Shown here: positions 459 through 15,968 of the stretch, one piece after another | Numbering within the stretch: position 1 is the stretch's first letter | Layout of the letters: each line of letters begins with the position of its first letter | IMG/VR virus record: IMGVR_UViG_3300022821_000107 | Span: 1-24,781 of that record | Source: a virus | Direction: 5' to 3' (one strand) | Length of the DNA stretch: 24,781 nucleotides | Program-made: the position numbers and the translations under genes | The notes under the pieces: model-generated | Told to the model about the DNA's origin: nothing | Database searches by the model: none | The model's input: only the letters and a program-made list of their open reading frames with translations

Positions 459-1184
459 TTACTCCTTTATCACTTTATACCCCTCCCTCTTTAACAACTC
501 CATTGCTTCTTCCATTTTGTCGTCTTTTGCTTCTGTATCTATTCCTGTAATTTCTTTGAAGATAGTAGATGAGAAGTTTGGTAATTCTAAGAAGTCTTTA
601 TGTCGTTCTGGATTTTCATTCCACCATATTTGACATGCCTCCTTAAACTCCAGTGTTTTTAAATAACCTCCCATTTGCTTTGCTTCTGGGAACTCTTTTA
701 TTTCATCTTTAGACATGTTTATTTCACATATCCATCTGTTTAGTGGAATATCGGCATAGATATTATATTTATTTTCAAATTCTTCATGTGTCATGTCTAC
801 CCATTGATTAAATATTTGGATTTTATCTGGTGAACCTGTATTGAAGTAACCACTATTCCAGTGACCACTATTGAAGTTACCACTATTCCAGTTACCACTA
901 TTCCTGTCACCACTATTGAAGTTACCACTATTCCTGTGACCATTATTACTGTTACCAGTATTCCAGTTACCACTATTCCAGTCACCACTATTCCTGTGAC
1001 CACTATTCCTGTAACCACTATTCCTGTAACCACTATTACTGTCACCACTATTCCAGTTACCACTATTCCTGTCACCACTATTGAAGTTACCACTATTCCT
1101 GTGACCACTATTCCAGTAACCATTATTCCTGTTACCACTATTCCTGTAACCACTATTGTCTATTCCTGTGTTGTTTTTGTTCAT
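459..1184 (-). CDS. Pentapeptide-repeat protein (NxGxx type) with conserved C-terminal domain
   Basis: Residues 5-119 are 23 tandem five-residue units of the form N-[S/T/N]-G-x-x, like the Asn/Gly-rich pentapeptide repeats (Pentapeptide_2 type), which are expected to form a right-handed beta-helix. Residues from about 120 to 241 form a separate domain with GGYLKTLEFKEAC, WWNENPERH, LPNF and EITGIDT. That combination recurs behind such repeats in phage-borne proteins, in my recollection. There is no signal peptide or membrane helix. The underlying DNA is a 15-bp tandem repeat, so unit number may vary between relatives. The role is unknown; a host-interaction or DNA-mimic role would be speculation. 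It lies in the AT-rich accessory end of the early arm. Confidence 0.85.
   Translation of the reverse strand: MNKNNTGIDNSGYRNSGNRNNGYWNSGHRNSGNFNSGDRNSGNWNSGDSNSGYRNSGYRNSGHRNSGDWNSGNWNTGNSNNGHRNSGNFNSGDRNSGNWNSGNFNSGHWNSGYFNTGSPDKIQIFNQWVDMTHEEFENKYNIYADIPLNRWICEINMSKDEIKEFPEAKQMGGYLKTLEFKEACQIWWNENPERHKDFLELPNFSSTIFKEITGIDTEAKDDKMEEAMELLKREGYKVIKE
828..1172 (-). repeat. 15-bp tandem repeat array encoding NxGxx units
   Basis: About 23 imperfect copies of a 15-bp unit, reading on the plus strand as variants of TTCCAGTTACCACTA, encode the pentapeptide repeats. Codons for Asn-Ser-Gly are almost invariant. The two following codons vary (Tyr-Arg, His-Arg, Asn-Phe, Asp-Arg, Asn-Trp). The reverse strand is also open because of the periodicity, but that reading is a shadow. 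Confidence 0.9.
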
Positions 1185-6649: not shown

Positions 6650-7048
6650 TTACCAAGTTAATTTAGTCTTTTCTGTCTTCTCGTCAATCTCGTCTTCCCA
6701 TCTCTCTTGATTGAGATAGGTCCCTGGATGTGGAATGAATTGTTTTTCTGTCGTACTCCACTCTCCTTTTATTCTCTTTTCCAATGCCTTCATTATTTTC
6801 TCAGTAAGCTCCTTGGAGGGATCAATCTTATTCCAATGCTTCTCTGCCAACTTTCTGCCTAGCTTTCTGGGATAAAGTGCATAGAACTCATCAAAGCCGA
6901 TGACTTCCCTGCCTTTTACCCTCTCTCTTTGATGTCTGAGTCCTCTTTCGTAGGCAATTCTCAGCTTCTCCTCCATGAATTTCTTAACCGTTGTACGATT
7001 AAACCTGATTTGTAATATCTCTTTCGGTACTCCTTCCAGCTCCTTCAT
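6650..7048 (-). CDS. Replication initiator / helicase-loader-like protein
   Basis: Residues 50-125 carry a pattern well known from the C-terminus of phage replication proteins that recruit DnaB: GFDEFYALYPRKLGRKLAEK, HWNKI, then FIPHPGTYLNQERWEDE. The N-terminal 50 residues include a short helical segment with RFNRTTVKKF that could be a remnant DNA-binding helix. At 132 residues it lacks the usual full N-terminal winged-helix initiator domain. It starts in a TAATG overlap with the dUTPase stop and ends one base before the helicase gene. Confidence 0.75.
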   Translation of the reverse strand: MKELEGVPKEILQIRFNRTTVKKFMEEKLRIAYERGLRHQRERVKGREVIGFDEFYALYPRKLGRKLAEKHWNKIDPSKELTEKIMKALEKRIKGEWSTTEKQFIPHPGTYLNQERWEDEIDEKTEKTKLTW

Positions 7049-7521
7049 TATTTACCTTTCTGATACTGTCCATCGTACATTGATGCTGAGTCTGCTTCGT
7101 GGAAGAAGATCTGCGCAACCCTTGCTCCTTTCTGGATCTCAACTGGCGCTGTTGTTCTTAGTACTGCTCCAATTTGATTCTTAAAGCCGCTGTCGTAAAG
7201 ACCTGAGATGATAAAGGCTCCCATTCTATTTAGAGTGCTTCTGTGAACAATCTGCGCACACATGTTCTCTGGAATAGCCACCTTTTGCTGAAATTCAATT
7301 GCGTATGAGTGTCCTGGGTGAAATGCGAAGTAATCCGCTCTATCCATCTCAAGTTCCGTATTGAGCTTCATCTTCTTATCATCAACACCCAGAGCTCCTC
7401 CGTTTATGAGTGATGCACTCTCAAGTGTTAGATCAATTCCGTTCTGTTGAATCTCAAACTTTCCTTCGTTTATGTTCTCAACAATCTTTTCTGCCTCTAT
7501 TTGTTTTGGGTTAATTATCAT
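7048..7521 (-). CDS. dut: dUTPase of the Dcd/Dut family
   Basis: The 157-residue trimer-type fold of the dCTP deaminase/dUTPase family shows QNGIDLTL (27-33), HRSTLNRMG (93-101), GLYDSGF with the water-activating Asp110, GARVAQIFF (132-140) and the end YDGQYQKGK, which is typical of the archaeal-style branch. The Glu that deaminases use for proton transfer is not visible where expected: the segment reads IGAVLRT. I therefore read it as a monofunctional dUTPase that keeps uracil out of phage DNA and supplies dUMP. It overlaps DpdA by 11 bases and the loader-like gene by one. Confidence 0.8.
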   Translation of the reverse strand: MIINPKQIEAEKIVENINEGKFEIQQNGIDLTLESASLINGGALGVDDKKMKLNTELEMDRADYFAFHPGHSYAIEFQQKVAIPENMCAQIVHRSTLNRMGAFIISGLYDSGFKNQIGAVLRTTAPVEIQKGARVAQIFFHEADSASMYDGQYQKGK

Positions 7522-8311
7522 CTTTAATTGTAGTTATGACTTTGTTAAAGTTGTTTATAATTCTATACTCTGATGCCACATCGATATTCTCTTGGTCAAA
7601 GTCTACCTTTGTCTGGATCTTGCCTCCTGGCACCTCCAAGAGTTCTCCCTCAAGCTCTTGTCCAAAGAGTCCTGACTGGAAACAACACGATGTATCATTT
7701 GATACCACCCAAGGACAGTTATCTCTTGCGTAAATTACGTCTGCGTATGAGTCTCCCAACCCAAGCAGATGACAATCCTTCCACACAACTCCCCTCTCTG
7801 AAAGCTTGATCATTTCCTTAAGTAGAGCCAATCGACTTTCCGTGACATCAAATTTGCCTGATTGCTCCTCGTATGATTTTGGAACTGCAAGTATTGAGAT
7901 CCCAATAAGATCAATGTGTTTGTTTGCATTGAAGACTAGTAATTGCTGAATGTAGTCCTTTACGTTGTCGGCTTGTACTACTGCTCCCATTTTAATCTTT
8001 AGATCCTTAGACCTTCTAATTGCCCTATCTACTTCAAGATAAGTTGCTTCTGTGTCGTAAAGAACGTCTGGTGCAAAGAAGTGTGTCGCTCCTACTCTAA
8101 CAGCTTTTACGAGTACGTCCTCAATTGATTCTGGAACACCATTTTCAAATAGACCATTGTCCATAACGATTGGTTTTCCGAGTTCCGTGATTGCTTTTTC
8201 ATAATCATTTTCCTCCCTCTTATCCATCAGATGTGAAAGTGCTAGGGTAAAGTCTGACGACCCTCCGAACTTTGCCACATATGCTGTTGGAACGATGAAT
8301 GCTAGCTTCAT
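7511..8311 (-). CDS. dpdA: DpdA-like 7-deazaguanine DNA transglycosylase (TGT paralogue)
   Basis: The 266-residue protein follows tRNA-guanine transglycosylase order. MDNGLFENG has Asp51 at the substrate-binding aspartate, FAPDVLYDTEAT follows, then a VVQAD strand, HLLGLGD (181-187) at the glycine-rich substrate loop, and VSNDTSCCFQ with Asp206 at the nucleophile position. It is far shorter than cellular TGT (about 375) and lacks the C-terminal CxCxxC zinc site. Phage DpdA proteins are TGT paralogues that exchange guanine in DNA for a 7-deazaguanine. Co-location with FolE, QueD and QueE supports DNA as the target, though a tRNA target cannot be excluded by sequence alone. ATGA overlap with the DUF5664-like gene. 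Confidence 0.8.
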   Translation of the reverse strand: MKLAFIVPTAYVAKFGGSSDFTLALSHLMDKREENDYEKAITELGKPIVMDNGLFENGVPESIEDVLVKAVRVGATHFFAPDVLYDTEATYLEVDRAIRRSKDLKIKMGAVVQADNVKDYIQQLLVFNANKHIDLIGISILAVPKSYEEQSGKFDVTESRLALLKEMIKLSERGVVWKDCHLLGLGDSYADVIYARDNCPWVVSNDTSCCFQSGLFGQELEGELLEVPGGKIQTKVDFDQENIDVASEYRIINNFNKVITTIKDDN

Positions 8312-8931
8312 TTTTGTTTTAATTTATTCTCATAATTTCCTCCCTTCCACTTCCAAATCTGTTGTGCGTTAAAAACCAATCCCATCTCGTGCTCCTCCTT
8401 AGGATCAATCTTTTCGCTTGCAAGATGATCTAGATACTCTTTACTTACCGGTCCGTACTCAAGCTCCATCCAAAGCGTAATTGTGTGCCTTAGAAGCGAC
8501 TCAAGCACCTCCTTTGGTGGCATTCCCCCCTTGAAGTTTGCGGCACCGTGTCTTATCTCACCCTTCTTCATGTGCTTTCCGTAGGCAATCAAGAAGTCGG
8601 GATAAAAGTAGGATGCATAATTCAATTTGTGATCCTGCTTATCTCTCGTAACTCCTTCTGCATACTCTGTCTTCTCTGCTTCGTCTTTGTCCATCAACGC
8701 ATTGTGCTTCTTGAAAAGCTCTTCAACTTTTCCCTCTGCCCACTTCTTAATTCTTAGATATCCAGGTCCTCCAAACTCAGATAGCTTTCTGATTGAGGTT
8801 CCTTTTATCATTGTCTCCTCACTTATCTCTGCAGCAATTTCTGAGTTTAGAATTCTCCACATATAAACTATGTATGCAATTCTATCAGTTGGATTCTGCG
8901 GATCCCGCTTCGTAAATCTTTTTTTATTCAT
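8308..8931 (-). CDS. DUF5664-like protein (possible dNTP pyrophosphohydrolase relative)
   Basis: The C-terminal 110 residues resemble DUF5664, annotated as the N-terminal domain of dATP/dGTP diphosphohydrolases. The helical segments are YPDFLIAYGKHMKKGEI, RHGAANFKGGMPP, LLRHTITLWME and EEHEMGLVFNAQQIW, the last of which matches the metal-facing His/Glu helix of that family. The N-terminal 95 residues are unassigned. I take ATG 8931 as the start because it overlaps the preceding stop by ATGAATAA. An upstream ATG at 8964 would overlap by 41 bases. Next to DpdA, it might adjust the purine deoxynucleotide pool, but that role is inferred. Confidence 0.55.
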   Translation of the reverse strand: MNKKRFTKRDPQNPTDRIAYIVYMWRILNSEIAAEISEETMIKGTSIRKLSEFGGPGYLRIKKWAEGKVEELFKKHNALMDKDEAEKTEYAEGVTRDKQDHKLNYASYFYPDFLIAYGKHMKKGEIRHGAANFKGGMPPKEVLESLLRHTITLWMELEYGPVSKEYLDHLASEKIDPKEEHEMGLVFNAQQIWKWKGGNYENKLKQK

Positions 8932-9277
8932 TAAATCTCTCGTAGTTGTTGATAACGCCAGCATTCTCTCCGTCCTCTGACACCTCTACCTCAATATGAC
9001 TTTTGCCATAGTCGGCCTCAAGGTAATCTAGGATGTATTCTGCCATATCCTCACAAGAGTATTCGGTCCTCTTTCGGCCTATTAACTCTTCTATAATTTC
9101 ATCGATGTGTCTTTGAACTATAAAGAATTCCAAAGCTCTCTCGTTGTGATCAACTGAAATCTTGGTAGTTACCTTAAATAGGTGCCTATGCAGATTCCTT
9201 AGAAAGTTGACCTCATCAGGTGCGTCTTTCCACCTGTGAAATCCTTCAAATTCATTTTTAACTTTAATGTATCTCAT
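8924..9277 (-). CDS. QueD-like T-fold protein lacking the catalytic cysteine
   Basis: The pattern lines up with QueD at 10343-10783. FEGFHRW (His14) matches the first zinc histidine, LHRHLFKV (His30, His32) matches LHGHRYKI, SCEDMAEYILDYL matches TAENIAKYIYDLI, and Glu101 lies where QueD has its catalytic Glu. The cysteine that QueD uses for catalysis, four residues before the HxH, is Leu26 here, and the protein is shorter (117 against 146). It is therefore probably a zinc-binding T-fold protein with a changed or lost reaction. It is the first gene of the downstream half of the deazaguanine cluster and overlaps the DUF5664-like gene by 8 bases. Confidence 0.6.
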   Translation of the reverse strand: MRYIKVKNEFEGFHRWKDAPDEVNFLRNLHRHLFKVTTKISVDHNERALEFFIVQRHIDEIIEELIGRKRTEYSCEDMAEYILDYLEADYGKSHIEVEVSEDGENAGVINNYERFNE

Positions 9278-9321
9278 CTCTCTATTTGTTAGTTTATATA
9301 ATCTCTACTAACCCAGTATAC

Positions 9322-9355
9322 ATTATAAATACATGCCAGACTAATAGTTGTGCAC
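9322..9355 (-). promoter_or_regulatory. Possible promoter for the T-fold/DpdA/helicase operon
   Basis: A perfect TATAAT on the minus strand at 9322-9327 lies 45 bases upstream of the start at 9277, in the only sizeable gap between FolE and the T-fold gene. No good -35 hexamer stands 16-18 bp upstream. That interval instead holds the motif AGTTGTGCAC (plus strand 9346-9355), a near copy of which also sits at the promoters at 5.3 and 11.6 kb, so it may bind an activator or DnaA-like protein. Confidence 0.4.
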
Positions 9356-9356
9356 A

Positions 9357-9989
9357 CTAATACCTACTTTGATCAATTAGATTGAAGAACTCCTGTCTAG
9401 TACCGACCTCATTAGTCCAGAAGTATCCAGAAAGTTCTGATGTCTTCATTGCGCTGTCGTGCCTCACTCCTCTACAAGAGACACAAGAATGCTGAGCTTC
9501 GATAACTACAGCCACTCCTCTATTTCCTTCACACAAGCGACCAATGTGATCGTGAACCTGCTTAGTAAGAGACTCTTGAATGTTTAATCTCTTGGCATAG
9601 AAGCCAACAATTCTATTTAACTTACTAAGACCAATCACTTTGTCAGTCTTTTCTTTTCCTGGGATGTATGCAACGTGTGCAACTCCGGTAAAGGGAAGGC
9701 AGTGATGAGCACAAAGACTTGTCACTGGTATTCTTGTTTGACAGATCAGTCCCGTGTAGCCCTCGTCATTTGGAAAGGCTGTCACAACTGGCTCCTCGTC
9801 CATTGATCCTGAGATCAAATCTCTCACCCACGACTTTGCTACTCTTGTTGGAGTATTTTGACTGTGAGGATCCTTGTCCCACTCAAGTCCGAGCTCTTTC
9901 AAAAAGCCTCCAAAGTGAACTGCTGCTCTCGCAATCATCTTTTCCTTCTCCTCTTCTGTTCGTGGTGTGTTTGAATTTATTTTTTTCAT
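9357..9989 (-). CDS. folE: GTP cyclohydrolase I
   Basis: This enzyme converts GTP to 7,8-dihydroneopterin triphosphate, the first step of 7-deazaguanine synthesis. The zinc ligands are visible as Cys93 and His96 in SLCAHHCLPF and Cys169 in EAQHSCVSC. The substrate loops GLSKLNRIV, RLNIQE and TSELSGYF are intact, and the length of 210 is normal for FolE. It starts one base after the phosphoribosyltransferase stop. With QueD and QueE it forms a dedicated operon, so it is more likely to feed base modification than folate synthesis. Confidence 0.95.
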   Translation of the reverse strand: MKKINSNTPRTEEEKEKMIARAAVHFGGFLKELGLEWDKDPHSQNTPTRVAKSWVRDLISGSMDEEPVVTAFPNDEGYTGLICQTRIPVTSLCAHHCLPFTGVAHVAYIPGKEKTDKVIGLSKLNRIVGFYAKRLNIQESLTKQVHDHIGRLCEGNRGVAVVIEAQHSCVSCRGVRHDSAMKTSELSGYFWTNEVGTRQEFFNLIDQSRY

Positions 9990-9990
9990 A

Positions 9991-10356
9991 TTAGCTTTCC
10001 CATGGGAATATTAAATAATAATCATGCAGAATCTCTAGTCCCGATAAGTCTGGCTTTATTTCTGAATTATATCTCTCATAAAGAGAAACAAATGCCAAGT
10101 AAGGATATCTAGCTCTCCACTTTTTCATTTCTTTTCCACTATCAACAATGTCGTCAACAAGTAGAGTCTTTCCTCCTATTAGACTTTTGTCTATTATTAG
10201 AGGTATGTCTAATCTATGAGAAAGCATTACGCCAGCGACAAGTCCTCCTCTTGGTATTGCGTAGATGTTTTCGAAGTCCAACTTCTTAAGATTTGGAACC
10301 ATCTCCTTCACACATCTCATTATTTCTGCCCAAGAGATTTGCTTAGTCTTTTTCAT
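9991..10356 (-). CDS. Phosphoribosyltransferase-family protein
   Basis: The PRPP-binding loop of type I phosphoribosyltransferases is clear in KTLLVDDIVDSGKEM, preceded by IYAIPRGGLVAGVML, which matches the start of the PRTase core. The frame is open upstream to 10422. I take ATG 10356 (MKKTKQISWAEI) because the fold begins there and it overlaps the QueD stop by only 14 bases. At 121 residues it is shorter than typical hypoxanthine or xanthine PRTases (about 150-180), lacking much of the hood. The substrate is unknown; purine salvage or handling of a deazapurine base are both possible. Confidence 0.75.
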   Translation of the reverse strand: MKKTKQISWAEIMRCVKEMVPNLKKLDFENIYAIPRGGLVAGVMLSHRLDIPLIIDKSLIGGKTLLVDDIVDSGKEMKKWRARYPYLAFVSLYERYNSEIKPDLSGLEILHDYYLIFPWES

Positions 10357-10783
10357 AAGTAGCGGTACTTGTTGGAGTCTCCCAAATTCGTACATGTTTA
10401 ATTTTAATGTTCCTCTCCTCAAGCTTTGGCTCGATTAAGTCGTAAATATACTTTGCGATATTCTCTGCAGTTGGAATGAATGGAGCATAGATGAATAGTT
10501 TTGATTGATTCTTCTCAACTAATTCATATGCAGGTCTATTAACGTCTTCTTCCCAAAAGATTGCATTGTGATCTAGTCTGCCGTCTATCTCTTGCATCAT
10601 TATTTCTTTTAGATCTCCAAAGTCAATTACCATTCCCTCGTCACTTGATCCTTTGTCTGTAATGATTTTATCGTCTACTCCTACCTCTATCTTATATCGA
10701 TGTCCGTGTAAATTTGAACACTTAGACTTATGATTTGGCACCCTATGTGCTAGATCAATCTCGATGTGCTTTGTGATTAACAT
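10343..10783 (-). CDS. queD: 6-carboxytetrahydropterin synthase QueD
   Basis: QueD turns dihydroneopterin triphosphate into 6-carboxy-5,6,7,8-tetrahydropterin. The zinc histidines are His13 (DLAHRVPNH) and His26/His28 (CSNLHGHRY). The catalytic Cys22 stands four residues before the HxH, LDHNAIF gives Asp71/His72, and Glu135 lies in IWETPTSTATY. The length of 146 is slightly above the usual 120-140. It lies between QueE, from which it is separated by a gap containing a terminator-like hairpin, and the phosphoribosyltransferase, which it overlaps. Confidence 0.93.
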   Translation of the reverse strand: MLITKHIEIDLAHRVPNHKSKCSNLHGHRYKIEVGVDDKIITDKGSSDEGMVIDFGDLKEIMMQEIDGRLDHNAIFWEEDVNRPAYELVEKNQSKLFIYAPFIPTAENIAKYIYDLIEPKLEERNIKIKHVRIWETPTSTATYEKD

Positions 10784-10810
10784 TGTGTTATTTTTTTGTT
10801 AGTTTATAAC

Positions 10811-10843
10811 GAAAAAGAGGACGACCGGCGACAGTCGCCCTCT
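10811..10843 (-). terminator. Rho-independent terminator-like hairpin between queE and queD
   Basis: On the minus strand a 10-bp stem (bases 10834-10843 with 10816-10825, one G-T pair) encloses an eight-base loop and is followed by TTTTTC (10811-10815 plus one base). It lies 4 bases after the queE stop and 28 bases before queD. It may reduce expression of the downstream genes relative to queE; part of the transcription must read through or restart. Confidence 0.7.
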
Positions 10844-10846
10844 AAA

Positions 10847-11578
10847 CTAAACTCCTCTCTTACCTCCGAACATGTCAATGTGTAGACGGTCCGAATACAT
10901 GAGTCCGAGTTCTTCTGCAAGGCTTGCGGTACGCAGGCTGGTCATGCCGAGCTCTTCTCTCGTTTTGCCAAGTGGCATTAGAAAGACTCGATACTTGTTG
11001 AGTTTGAAATTCTTGATGTACTCTCTGATCTCAGGAATGTCATCGACACCAGATATCACAAACTTGAAGTAAGTGTTATCCATTTTCGCAAACTTCTCCA
11101 TTGCCCCTCTCACAATCCGTGAAGATCTAGAGTTTTCAGAATTCCTTAACTTTGGTGAGCAGTTGAACTGATCAGTCAAAGCAACGATTTCGTCAGTAGG
11201 AGTAATGGTTCCATTTGTCTCAATCTCGATCCACCAATCATCTTCACGAAGAAGAGTAAGAAGTGGGACAAGTGCTTTCTGTTGAATAAGAGGCTCGCCA
11301 CCAGAGATGACAAGCGACTTCAGATCGCCAAGCTTTCTGAGTTCCTCAAGAATGTCTTCAGGACTCATCGCAATTGTTTCACTCTCTCGATTGAACTTCT
11401 CAGGATGAGCAAAGCTCGTTCCTTCCCAGTTCCAAGTATGAGGAGTGTCACACCAAATGCATTGAAGGTTGCATCCGACAAGTCGGAGAAACAACACTTC
11501 TTTGCCTGCAGTTTTGCCCTCACCCTGAATGGTAGGACCAAACATCTCGTTTACTTTTATTTGCATATTTGTTTTCAT
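10847..11578 (-). CDS. queE: 7-carboxy-7-deazaguanine synthase QueE (radical SAM)
   Basis: This radical SAM enzyme rearranges 6-carboxytetrahydropterin to 7-carboxy-7-deazaguanine. The opening MFGPTIQGEGKTAGKEVLF is diagnostic of QueE. The iron-sulfur cluster cysteines are Cys36, Cys40 and Cys43 in GCNLQCIWCDT, the SAM-binding glycines are in ISGGEPLIQQ, and IEIETNGT follows. The length of 243 is normal. It is the first gene of the minus arm, read from a strong promoter (TATAAT at 11602-11607), with a leader of about 17 bases. An in-frame ATG at residue 5 is an alternative start. Confidence 0.95.
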   Translation of the reverse strand: MKTNMQIKVNEMFGPTIQGEGKTAGKEVLFLRLVGCNLQCIWCDTPHTWNWEGTSFAHPEKFNRESETIAMSPEDILEELRKLGDLKSLVISGGEPLIQQKALVPLLTLLREDDWWIEIETNGTITPTDEIVALTDQFNCSPKLRNSENSRSSRIVRGAMEKFAKMDNTYFKFVISGVDDIPEIREYIKNFKLNKYRVFLMPLGKTREELGMTSLRTASLAEELGLMYSDRLHIDMFGGKRGV

Positions 11579-14193: not shown

Positions 14194-14442
14194 ATGTTAA
14201 AAATACTAGGCAACAGAGTCCTCCTATCCAAAGTGGAGAAGGAGAAGAAAGAGGGAGAGTTCGAAGAGGTAGAGGTTCAAGACAGTTTTGTTTACAAAGG
14301 AAGAGTCGAGCAACTAGGAGGAGGACTTCAAGGAGAAATACAAATAGGATCAATCGTCCACTTCGCCAAGTACTCACCACACACACACGATATTGAAGAC
14401 ATGAAGGCAGTTAGATTGGAAGATATAATCGCAATAGAATAA
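14194..14442 (+). CDS. groES: GroES-like co-chaperonin with altered mobile loop
   Basis: The beta-barrel frame of GroES is visible: ILGNRVLLSKVEKE at the N-terminus, YKGRVEQLGGG in the strand normally ending in VGxG, IQIGSIVHFAKYS, and the end VRLEDIIAIE. At 82 residues it is shorter than GroES (about 97). The mobile loop that docks on GroEL normally carries a hydrophobic IVL triad. Here it is replaced by the acidic GEFEEVEVQ, and no GGIVL is present. It overlaps groEL by one base (TAATG), so the two are produced together. Confidence 0.8.
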   Translation: MLKILGNRVLLSKVEKEKKEGEFEEVEVQDSFVYKGRVEQLGGGLQGEIQIGSIVHFAKYSPHTHDIEDMKAVRLEDIIAIE

Positions 14443-15968
14443 TGGCAAAAGAATCAACAAGAGGGGCAGAAGGAAGAGCTAAGGTAAAGAAAGGGATTGA
14501 TGAAGCAACTCTCGAAGTAGCACCAACTCTAGGAGCAGTAGGAATGACGGCAATGATTGAGTATCCAGGTCTTGATCCACTTGATGCCGATGATGGTAAG
14601 ACAATCCTTAACAGTCTTGAGTATGAAGATCCATACATGGAGATGGGACTGAAGAGACTGAAGAAGGCAGCCAACCGGACCAGTGAAGAGGGAGGTGATG
14701 GAACGGCAACAACAACAGTCATCACTCAAGCCCTAGTTACCGAAGCATTCAAGCTGGTAGAGAAGGACTCATCCATGATCAGAGAAGTTAAGGAACGACT
14801 ACAGTCCGGGCTTACTGAACTGATGAAGGAACTAGAGAAAGGAAGAAGAGAAGTGAAGGAGGATGATGTGGAACGCATCGCAACCATCTCATCACTTGAT
14901 CCTGAAGTAGCAAAGTTAATTGCTGAGGTCATCAAGGAGATCGGAGTCAATGGAGTTATCACAGTAGAGAAGGGAGCTAAGATCGGTTACTCATCGGAGG
15001 TGGTGAAGGGAGCTAAGTTCGACTCAGGGTTGATCTCTCCATACTTCATCAACGACCAAGAGAGGATGCAGACAGTTTTAAATGATGTCTACGTCGTTCT
15101 TGTTGATAGGAAGGTGAGCATGAATGAACAAATCAAGCCACTACTTGAGTCTATCGGACAGGGCAATGACGTTATGTTCATCGCCACAGATGTTGACTCA
15201 GTAGCACTTGCATCACTAGCTCAGAACGCAGCCAACGGATTGCTTAACTGTGCATGTGTTCGTAACCCATACAACGCAACACCGGCTAAGGACTTCCTGT
15301 TTGATATCGCAGCATTGACCGGAGCATCTGTCATCTCAGAAGAGAGAGGAATGAAGCTAGAGGATTGTGGTATCGAAGTATGTGGTAGAGCAGAGAAGGT
15401 GATAGTGACCAAGGACTCAGCTACCATCATTGGAGGTGTGGCGGGAGATGTACTTCCTAAGAGGATCGCAGAGATCGAAGCAATGATCGAAAGCACCACA
15501 TCATCATTCGACAAAGATAATCTAAAGGACAGACTGGCTCAACTGACTGGAGGTATTGGAGTCATAAGGGTTGGAGCATATACAGACACTGACTTCAATG
15601 CAAAGCAGTACAAATTCCAGAACGCCATCAATGCAACACAGGCAGCACTTCAGGAGGGAGTGATTGCAGGAGGAGGGATCGCACTACTTAATTGTGAGGT
15701 GAAGGAGCCAATGTTCCAGAACATTCTATCTGTACCATTCAGACAGATGGCCAAGAACGCTGGATTGAAAGAGAATCTTCAGTTCAATACCTCAACGGAG
15801 GGTTATGATTTCAAGAATAAGAAGAAGGTCGACATGTTCGAAGCAGGCATCATCGATCCATTCAAGGTAACTCGTCTGGCTCTTGAGAGTGCAACAGCCA
15901 TTGCATCATCGCTAGTAGGAACAGAGACAGCGATAGTGGCCAAGAAGGAGAAGAACTTAAAGAGCTAA
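14442..15968 (+). CDS. groEL: Divergent phage GroEL chaperonin
   Basis: The group I chaperonin signature runs throughout. TLGAVGM stands for the TLGPKGR loop, the DDG at 50-52 holds the Asp52 equivalent (Asp51), and GGDGTATTT at 84-92 has the Asp87 equivalent (Asp86). TGASVISEERGMKLED, LTGGIGVIRVGAYT, QEGVIAGGGIALL (404-416) and GIIDPFKVTRLAL (469-481, Asp472 for Asp495) follow. At Asp398, the residue needed for ATP hydrolysis, there is Asn394. GFGDRR of the apical domain and the GGM tail are missing; the length is 508 against about 545. Lying between TerS and TerL, it probably folds virion proteins. The last 21 bases lie in a 43-bp repeat. Confidence 0.93.
   Translation: MAKESTRGAEGRAKVKKGIDEATLEVAPTLGAVGMTAMIEYPGLDPLDADDGKTILNSLEYEDPYMEMGLKRLKKAANRTSEEGGDGTATTTVITQALVTEAFKLVEKDSSMIREVKERLQSGLTELMKELEKGRREVKEDDVERIATISSLDPEVAKLIAEVIKEIGVNGVITVEKGAKIGYSSEVVKGAKFDSGLISPYFINDQERMQTVLNDVYVVLVDRKVSMNEQIKPLLESIGQGNDVMFIATDVDSVALASLAQNAANGLLNCACVRNPYNATPAKDFLFDIAALTGASVISEERGMKLEDCGIEVCGRAEKVIVTKDSATIIGGVAGDVLPKRIAEIEAMIESTTSSFDKDNLKDRLAQLTGGIGVIRVGAYTDTDFNAKQYKFQNAINATQAALQEGVIAGGGIALLNCEVKEPMFQNILSVPFRQMAKNAGLKENLQFNTSTEGYDFKNKKKVDMFEAGIIDPFKVTRLALESATAIASSLVGTETAIVAKKEKNLKS

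Follow-up and report, generated by a model that had tools for sequence, protein, structure and literature searches.

What becomes of 7-carboxy-7-deazaguanine (CDG) in a phage that carries the genes for making it but not QueC, the enzyme that would lead on to preQ0? The question is raised by the IMG/VR record IMGVR_UViG_3300022821_000107, a phage fragment of 24,781 bases analysed over its complete length and called the window below. Its minus strand carries, in this order, genes for QueE, QueD, a small phosphoribosyltransferase (PRT), FolE, a QueD-like protein of 117 amino acids (QDL), a dATP/dGTP-diphosphohydrolase-like protein, a DpdA-like protein of 266 amino acids and a dCTP deaminase/dUTPase-like protein, after which come replication genes (Table 1). 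The initial annotation had recognized QueE, QueD, FolE and DpdA as a 7-deazaguanine DNA modification cluster without QueC. Pfam, PHROG, NCBIfam and structure comparison bear out these four genes and their positions, and QueC was found nowhere in the record; QDL, the PRT and the (d)NTP pyrophosphohydrolase had gone unmentioned. Given this gene content, it is very likely that the cluster serves to modify the phage DNA.

The catalytic and metal-binding residues had been described as intact, and indeed the CxxxCxxC motif of QueE aligns with that of solved enzymes, C22, H26, D71, H72, E107 and E135 of QueD are invariant across 16 relatives, and the zinc motifs of FolE are covered by the alignment with solved enzymes. 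In PADLOC, QueE gave a weak cross-match to viperin only. FolE, QueD and QueE would convert GTP to CDG, where the preQ0 route would be left. At this point QDL, predicted to bind zinc, would act on CDG instead of QueC and most likely strip it of its carboxyl group, leaving 7-deazaguanine; the short DpdA would swap guanine in DNA for this base, blunting restriction enzymes; and the PRT would turn the guanine released by DpdA into GMP, re-entering the pathway as GTP. This explanation, taken as a whole, we regard as the probable one. It draws on the genes, folds and conserved residues, the exclusion of QueC, repeated switching, its coupling to the DpdA clade, and PRT-FolE fusions.

QDL and QueC in phage clusters

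The predicted model of QDL (predicted local distance difference test, pLDDT, 93) has the PTPS fold, the nearest PDB structure being that of E. coli QueD (4ntk). Aligned with QueD, QDL keeps all three histidines of the zinc site (H14, H30, H32) as well as the substrate glutamate (E101), but it has lost the QueD catalytic residues: the cysteine (E. coli Cys27) is an invariant leucine, and the segment with Asp70-His71 is absent. In their stead QDL has new invariant residues, R31, S74-C75-E76 (SCE) and E101-D102 (within an EDGEN motif). The protein belongs to phrog_17812, a PHROG family of unknown function. These features point to an enzyme that has the PTPS fold but a remodelled active site, with a pocket that may suit a molecule with a 2-amino-4-oxo-pyrimidine ring, such as CDG. 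QDL is not a substitute for QueD, because QDL genomes usually keep the canonical QueD alongside.

In order to compare clusters, three neutral sets of loci were fetched without reference to QDL or QueC, one of them with FolE alone (57 loci). In this FolE set, QDL was present in 34 of the 34 clusters bearing QueE, and QueC in none of them. In the three sets together, the descriptive counts for clusters with QueE in view were 36 with QDL only, 10 with QueC only, none with both and 2 with neither, one of the latter having its QueC elsewhere in the record (L108). Likewise, none of 80 loci fetched with QDL itself contained QueC. When whole records were searched, 46 of 48 QDL records, including the complete genomes of phiST, Paride, BUCT-ZZ01 and Ahp1, gave no QueC match at all. 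The other two gave weak partial matches outside the cluster (23-33 bits, versus 122-234 bits for genuine QueCs), which were rejected as real QueC: they resemble divergent N-type ATP pyrophosphatases and lie far from the cluster. Conversely, QDL was found in 0 of 15 whole QueC records, positive controls being included. DpdA, QueE, FolE and QDL co-occur across diverse phages.

Near the window, QDL and QueC are exchanged position for position: a relative (L107) has the order QueE-QueD-PRT-FolE-QueC-DpdA, versus QueE-QueD-PRT-FolE-QDL-dGTPase-like-DpdA in the window, and its DpdA differs. We therefore think it likely that QDL takes over from QueC at the CDG node. This would explain why many phage clusters make CDG without QueC, a degenerate QueD paralogue standing in QueC's place. 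As to the outcome of the reaction, we lean towards decarboxylation rather than another product.

Two kinds of neighbour of QDL were also recorded. In some loci QDL is fused C-terminally to a further domain (L029:8834-9730, L032:9989-10750, L037:9989-10828, L048:9811-10764 and L049:9992-10735), which has the motif F-x-G-x-E-x-E-GP...LFVPG...YYGAGN and no Pfam match; a stand-alone homologue of 179 amino acids lies near QDL in 32 loci. Other loci have GT-B-like glycosyltransferase genes beside QDL (L061:11698-12810; L113:8355-9521; Pseudomonas phage Paride, L112, 6843-7904; also L026-L029, L032, L033, L037, L039, L044 and L052), and glycosyltransferase-bearing QDL loci mostly have a DpdA2-like transglycosylase of 520 amino acids.

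The transglycosylase and the repeated switching

The DpdA of the window has no Pfam or NCBIfam family match. However, its AlphaFold model (mean pLDDT 93) adopts the TIM-barrel fold of tRNA-guanine transglycosylases (TGT), and in a Foldseek comparison 50 of the top 50 PDB rows were TGTs (best E 1.4e-7). D51, D82, Q113, H181, G184 and D206 are invariant among 19 relatives (D51 and D206 in 19/19). In a weak profile alignment, D51, D82, Q113 and D206 align with their counterparts in E. coli TGT, D51 and D206 being in register with the DSGGF aspartate and the nucleophile aspartate. The protein thus holds its place as a TGT paralogue with both proposed catalytic aspartates. It had also been noted as short and devoid of the C-terminal TGT zinc site. 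Both are true, since the 266 amino acids stop before that region, but they are normal for this subfamily, whose members measure about 257-305 amino acids (in round figures 260-300).

Profile searches placed in the same family a protein of Campylobacter phage CP220 (E 2.8e-43, 264 amino acids) and one of Cellulophaga phage phiST. The profile found nothing in the complete genome of Vibrio phage nt-1, which has DpdA2, at E up to 1, and no family member in phage 9g; compared profile to profile, the short family and the DpdA2-like family gave 58.6% probability only. The CP220 protein is a candidate for the DpdA of that phage, none being known there in 2019; it may be the published DpdA3, a name reportedly given to the type with complete replacement of G. 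The short DpdA of Bacillus phages BSP7/BSTP (L016, 11914-12702) adjoins FolE-QueC-QueD-QueE. Its labels in public records range from hypothetical to integrase or kinase, and for this family such labels are unreliable.

Relatives of the short DpdA adjoin either QueC, QueE and FolE or QDL, QueE and FolE, and the two states have been exchanged repeatedly. A tree of 95 QueE proteins shows eight changes between QueC and QDL, of which supported branches force at least seven. In the pairs L002/L163 and L003/L176, the QueE proteins are 92% identical and the states opposite. On the DpdA tree there are only two such changes: of 13 QueC-type proteins, 12 fall in one clade, that of CP220 among them. Thus the absence of QueC is a systematic, repeatedly evolved state, paired with QDL in the same operon and with a separate clade of DpdA. 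Eight changes on one tree against two on the other mean that a switch of the tailoring enzyme goes with a change of transglycosylase. The same is illustrated by L003 and L177, which share 85% identity in QueE, 86% in QueD and 81% in PRT, but 27% in DpdA. A new DpdA would be needless if QDL only repeated the QueC reaction, so that a different base is the simplest reading.

In QDL clusters FolE, QDL and DpdA sit side by side, and this physical linkage may contribute to the joint switching of QDL and DpdA. However, in QueC clusters both QueC and DpdA are located beyond QueD-QueE, on the opposite flank, and therefore the switch is not one simple block replacement. Taken with the DpdA clade, the QueC/QDL switch could serve as a genomic indicator of the base that a phage uses in its DNA, and the switch pairs as matched enzymes for finding what determines the base specificity of DpdA. 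Base switching would also fit an arms race, in which phages change the base once hosts have learned to cut the old one.

Proposed guanine salvage, and the remainder of the locus

The gene between QueD and FolE is predicted to encode a shortened xanthine-guanine phosphoribosyltransferase (mini-XGPRT), with the phosphoribosyl pyrophosphate motif VDDxxDxG and an XGPRT-like C-terminal PW motif. Its stop codon precedes the FolE start by 1 base. Used as a single scan query, this PRT found no relatives in viral contigs, the family being too divergent, and relatives were picked up by profile search. In at least seven relatives a PRT domain of the same type (motifs PRGG, VDDxxxSG and FPW) is fused N-terminally to FolE; a PRT profile built without the fusions recovers three of these. 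The PRT is present in QueC clusters too, which would be expected if its role is linked to DpdA and not to the kind of base.

A transglycosylase frees one guanine per exchange, and the pathway consumes one GTP per base. We therefore propose a salvage loop from guanine via GMP and GTP to FolE, and find it fairly probable that the guanine freed by DpdA is recycled in this way by the PRT. To our knowledge, such a loop, as suggested by the PRT-FolE fusions, has not been described before.

The initial annotation had placed the cluster in one transcription block. The genes do form a block on the same strand, which may or may not be transcribed as one unit, given the strong terminator-like hairpin between QueE and QueD. 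The slot of the (d)NTP pyrophosphohydrolase is kept in kind, being filled by PF18909 in the window, by DUF1599 ("nucleotide modification associated domain 1") in the homologue of L109, and by MazG in phiST. The dCTP deaminase/dUTPase-like gene adjoins DpdA in most relatives.

Table 1. Features of the window, and PRT-FolE fusions in related loci (L numbers).
Feature	Position	Strand	Evidence
QueE, CDG synthase, radical S-adenosylmethionine enzyme	10847..11578	-	PHROG QueE 6e-54; NCBIfam QueE 5e-28; solved QueE 3e-19, CxxxCxxC aligned
Terminator-like hairpin between QueE and QueD, 12 pairs and T run	10816..10843	-	Pattern scan; not evidence of function
QueD, canonical 6-carboxytetrahydropterin synthase, catalytic Cys/Asp/His	10343..10783	-	Pfam PTPS 8.5e-36; NCBIfam QueD 2e-25
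Predicted mini-XGPRT, probable start 10356	9991..10422	-	NCBIfam xanthine PRTase 1.5e-15; E. coli XGPRT alignment; VDDIVDSG conserved
FolE, GTP cyclohydrolase I	9357..9989	-	Pfam 3e-44; PHROG 3e-56; solved FolE 4e-31
QDL, QueD-like PTPS paralogue, proposed CDG-processing QueC stand-in	8924..9277	-	AlphaFold 2 model, pLDDT 93; nearest PDB E. coli QueD 4ntk; excludes QueC
Predicted (d)NTP pyrophosphohydrolase (dATP/dGTP diphosphohydrolase N-terminal domain)	8308..8964	-	PF18909 3e-7, above cut-off
DpdA-like DNA-guanine transglycosylase, short subfamily, 266 amino acids	7511..8311	-	AlphaFold 2 model, pLDDT 93; top PDB matches all TGT
dCTP deaminase/dUTPase-like nucleotide enzyme	7048..7521	-	Pfam DCD 3e-21; NCBIfam dUTPase/dCTP deaminase
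PRT-FolE fusions	L027:9033-9980, L028:9021-9953, L030:4073-5104, L032:8609-9523, L042:2511-3542, L043:3711-4742, L049:9038-9949		

Elsewhere in the window, a pair of genes for GroES-like (82 amino acids) and GroEL (508 amino acids) proteins lies directly upstream of the terminase gene (14194-15968, plus strand), and the close relatives L021-L025 keep GroEL adjoining the terminase. A protein of 241 amino acids (459-1184, minus strand) has an N-terminal run of NSGxx/NxGxx pentapeptide-like repeats and matches phrog_14105, of unknown function. By megablast, the whole window has no match among isolated phages, and in the nearest relatives by terminase (L020-L025) the deazaguanine cluster was not found in the available portions.

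Other possible fates of CDG, and known systems

For the missing QueC two options had been offered at the outset, insertion of CDG itself or production of preQ0 by the host QueC. Neither is now the best, as QDL points to a third route from CDG. Insertion of CDG survives better. DpdA would make dCDG, reportedly a natural phage base, and QDL would be a carrier, a chaperone or a regulatory paralogue, or would act after insertion. This agrees with the lack of QueC in the window, and Hutinet et al. 2019 (PMC6884629) considered CDG in the case of phage Bipper, which lacks QueC. We nevertheless find it rather unlikely. The metal and substrate pocket of QDL is strictly conserved and the new invariant SCE and EDGEN are enzyme-like; moreover, in the neutral FolE set no QueC-less cluster with QueE does without QDL, which is therefore not optional.

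Somewhat less likely still, QDL could make another CDG derivative, for example a handle for decoration, to which a GT-B glycosyltransferase would add a sugar in the relatives. A glycosyltransferase-like gene adjoins QDL in 49 of the 80 loci fetched with QDL, and among loci with the DpdA2-like enzyme it is found in 32 of 34, among those with a 319-aa type in 10 of 21. Its profile weakly matches solved GT-B enzymes, and the L113 protein matches Pfam glycosyltransferases group 1. However, window-type clusters have no glycosyltransferase beside QDL (0/15 in the QDL set, 0/39 in the FolE set), and O- or C-glycosylation of the carboxyl or of the decarboxylated base could also account for the link. 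For the phages that do carry the gene, it suggests a sugar-decorated deazaguanine.

A host QueC, or a distant one in the phage, might make preQ0 for an ordinary preQ0/ADG (7-amido-7-deazaguanine) system, since the record is a fragment and QueC can sit apart from QueE, as in L108. This is improbable in view of the 46 whole QDL records devoid of any QueC match (the two others being weak and partial) and of a DpdA clade distinct from the one in QueC phages; no host QueC has to be assumed. It is very improbable that the genes serve to enhance the host's queuosine or folate metabolism, pathways that share FolE, QueD and QueE (PMC6884629), as a TGT-fold DpdA of CP220/phiST type is in the operon, QueC, required for queuosine, is systematically absent, and the gene block runs on into replication genes. 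Replacement of the nucleotide pool by PRT, dGTP diphosphohydrolase and polymerase, as for 2-aminoadenine, was ranked low on account of the same TGT-fold enzyme.

Several points weigh against the route from CDG by way of QDL to 7-deazaguanine. The product of QDL, in this phage as in other QDL phages, is predicted from the genes, and decarboxylation goes a step beyond what sequence can tell. A glycosyltransferase beside QDL in other clusters is hard to square with bare 7-deazaguanine, and the remaining genome could hold a distant QueC. The loci are mutually related, so that the exclusion counts do not stand for independent events. The trees were quick searches with some long branches, and Bacillus phage BSP7 (L016) is an unplaced exception. 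Finally, PRT-FolE fusion argues for coupling, not for the salvage chemistry itself. A broader picture, to which the glycosyltransferases beside QDL are the best pointer, is put forward only tentatively: QDL would be a new CDG-tailoring family that phages can switch to instead of QueC, tailoring enzyme and transglycosylase would be exchanged as a pair so that lineages flip between chemically different bases, guanine would be recycled on site by the PRT-FolE pair, and glycosyltransferase-bearing relatives would have a sugar-decorated 7-deazaguanine not described so far.

Among known systems, the preQ0-G+ systems of phages 9g, CAjan and Rosebush share FolE, QueD, QueE and DpdA in phage clusters with the window, but they use QueC or Gat-QueC, and in 9g the short DpdA family and QDL are both missing. 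For this type, DNA modification was demonstrated by mass spectrometry, and such bases protect phage DNA (Hutinet et al. 2019, PMC6884629). CP220 shares the short DpdA but has QueC, no QDL being found, and its DpdA is in the QueC clade; it is therefore assigned to the ADG/preQ0 route. Its DNA reportedly carries dADG at a high level (Crippen et al. 2019, as cited in PMC6884629). Four further bases are announced in the title of Cui et al. 2023 (NAR gkad657), as cited in PMC12783734.

The system most like that of the window is in Cellulophaga phage phiST (KC821604, gp036-gp042), where a single block holds QueD, QueE, FolE, an NTP pyrophosphohydrolase, QDL and a DpdA from the same short family, QueC being absent. 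It differs by MazG in place of the PF18909 protein, an additional kinase-like gene, a slightly different order and no PRT found in the locus. The modified bases of phages in general are said to include dDG (the deoxynucleoside of 7-deazaguanine) besides dCDG, with a QueD paralogue, DpdL, as the predicted CDG decarboxylase. QDL may well be DpdL, the same decarboxylation of CDG and a QueC-independent product being proposed for both. If so, the window would hold a new member of an already known kind of system, with a broader distribution.

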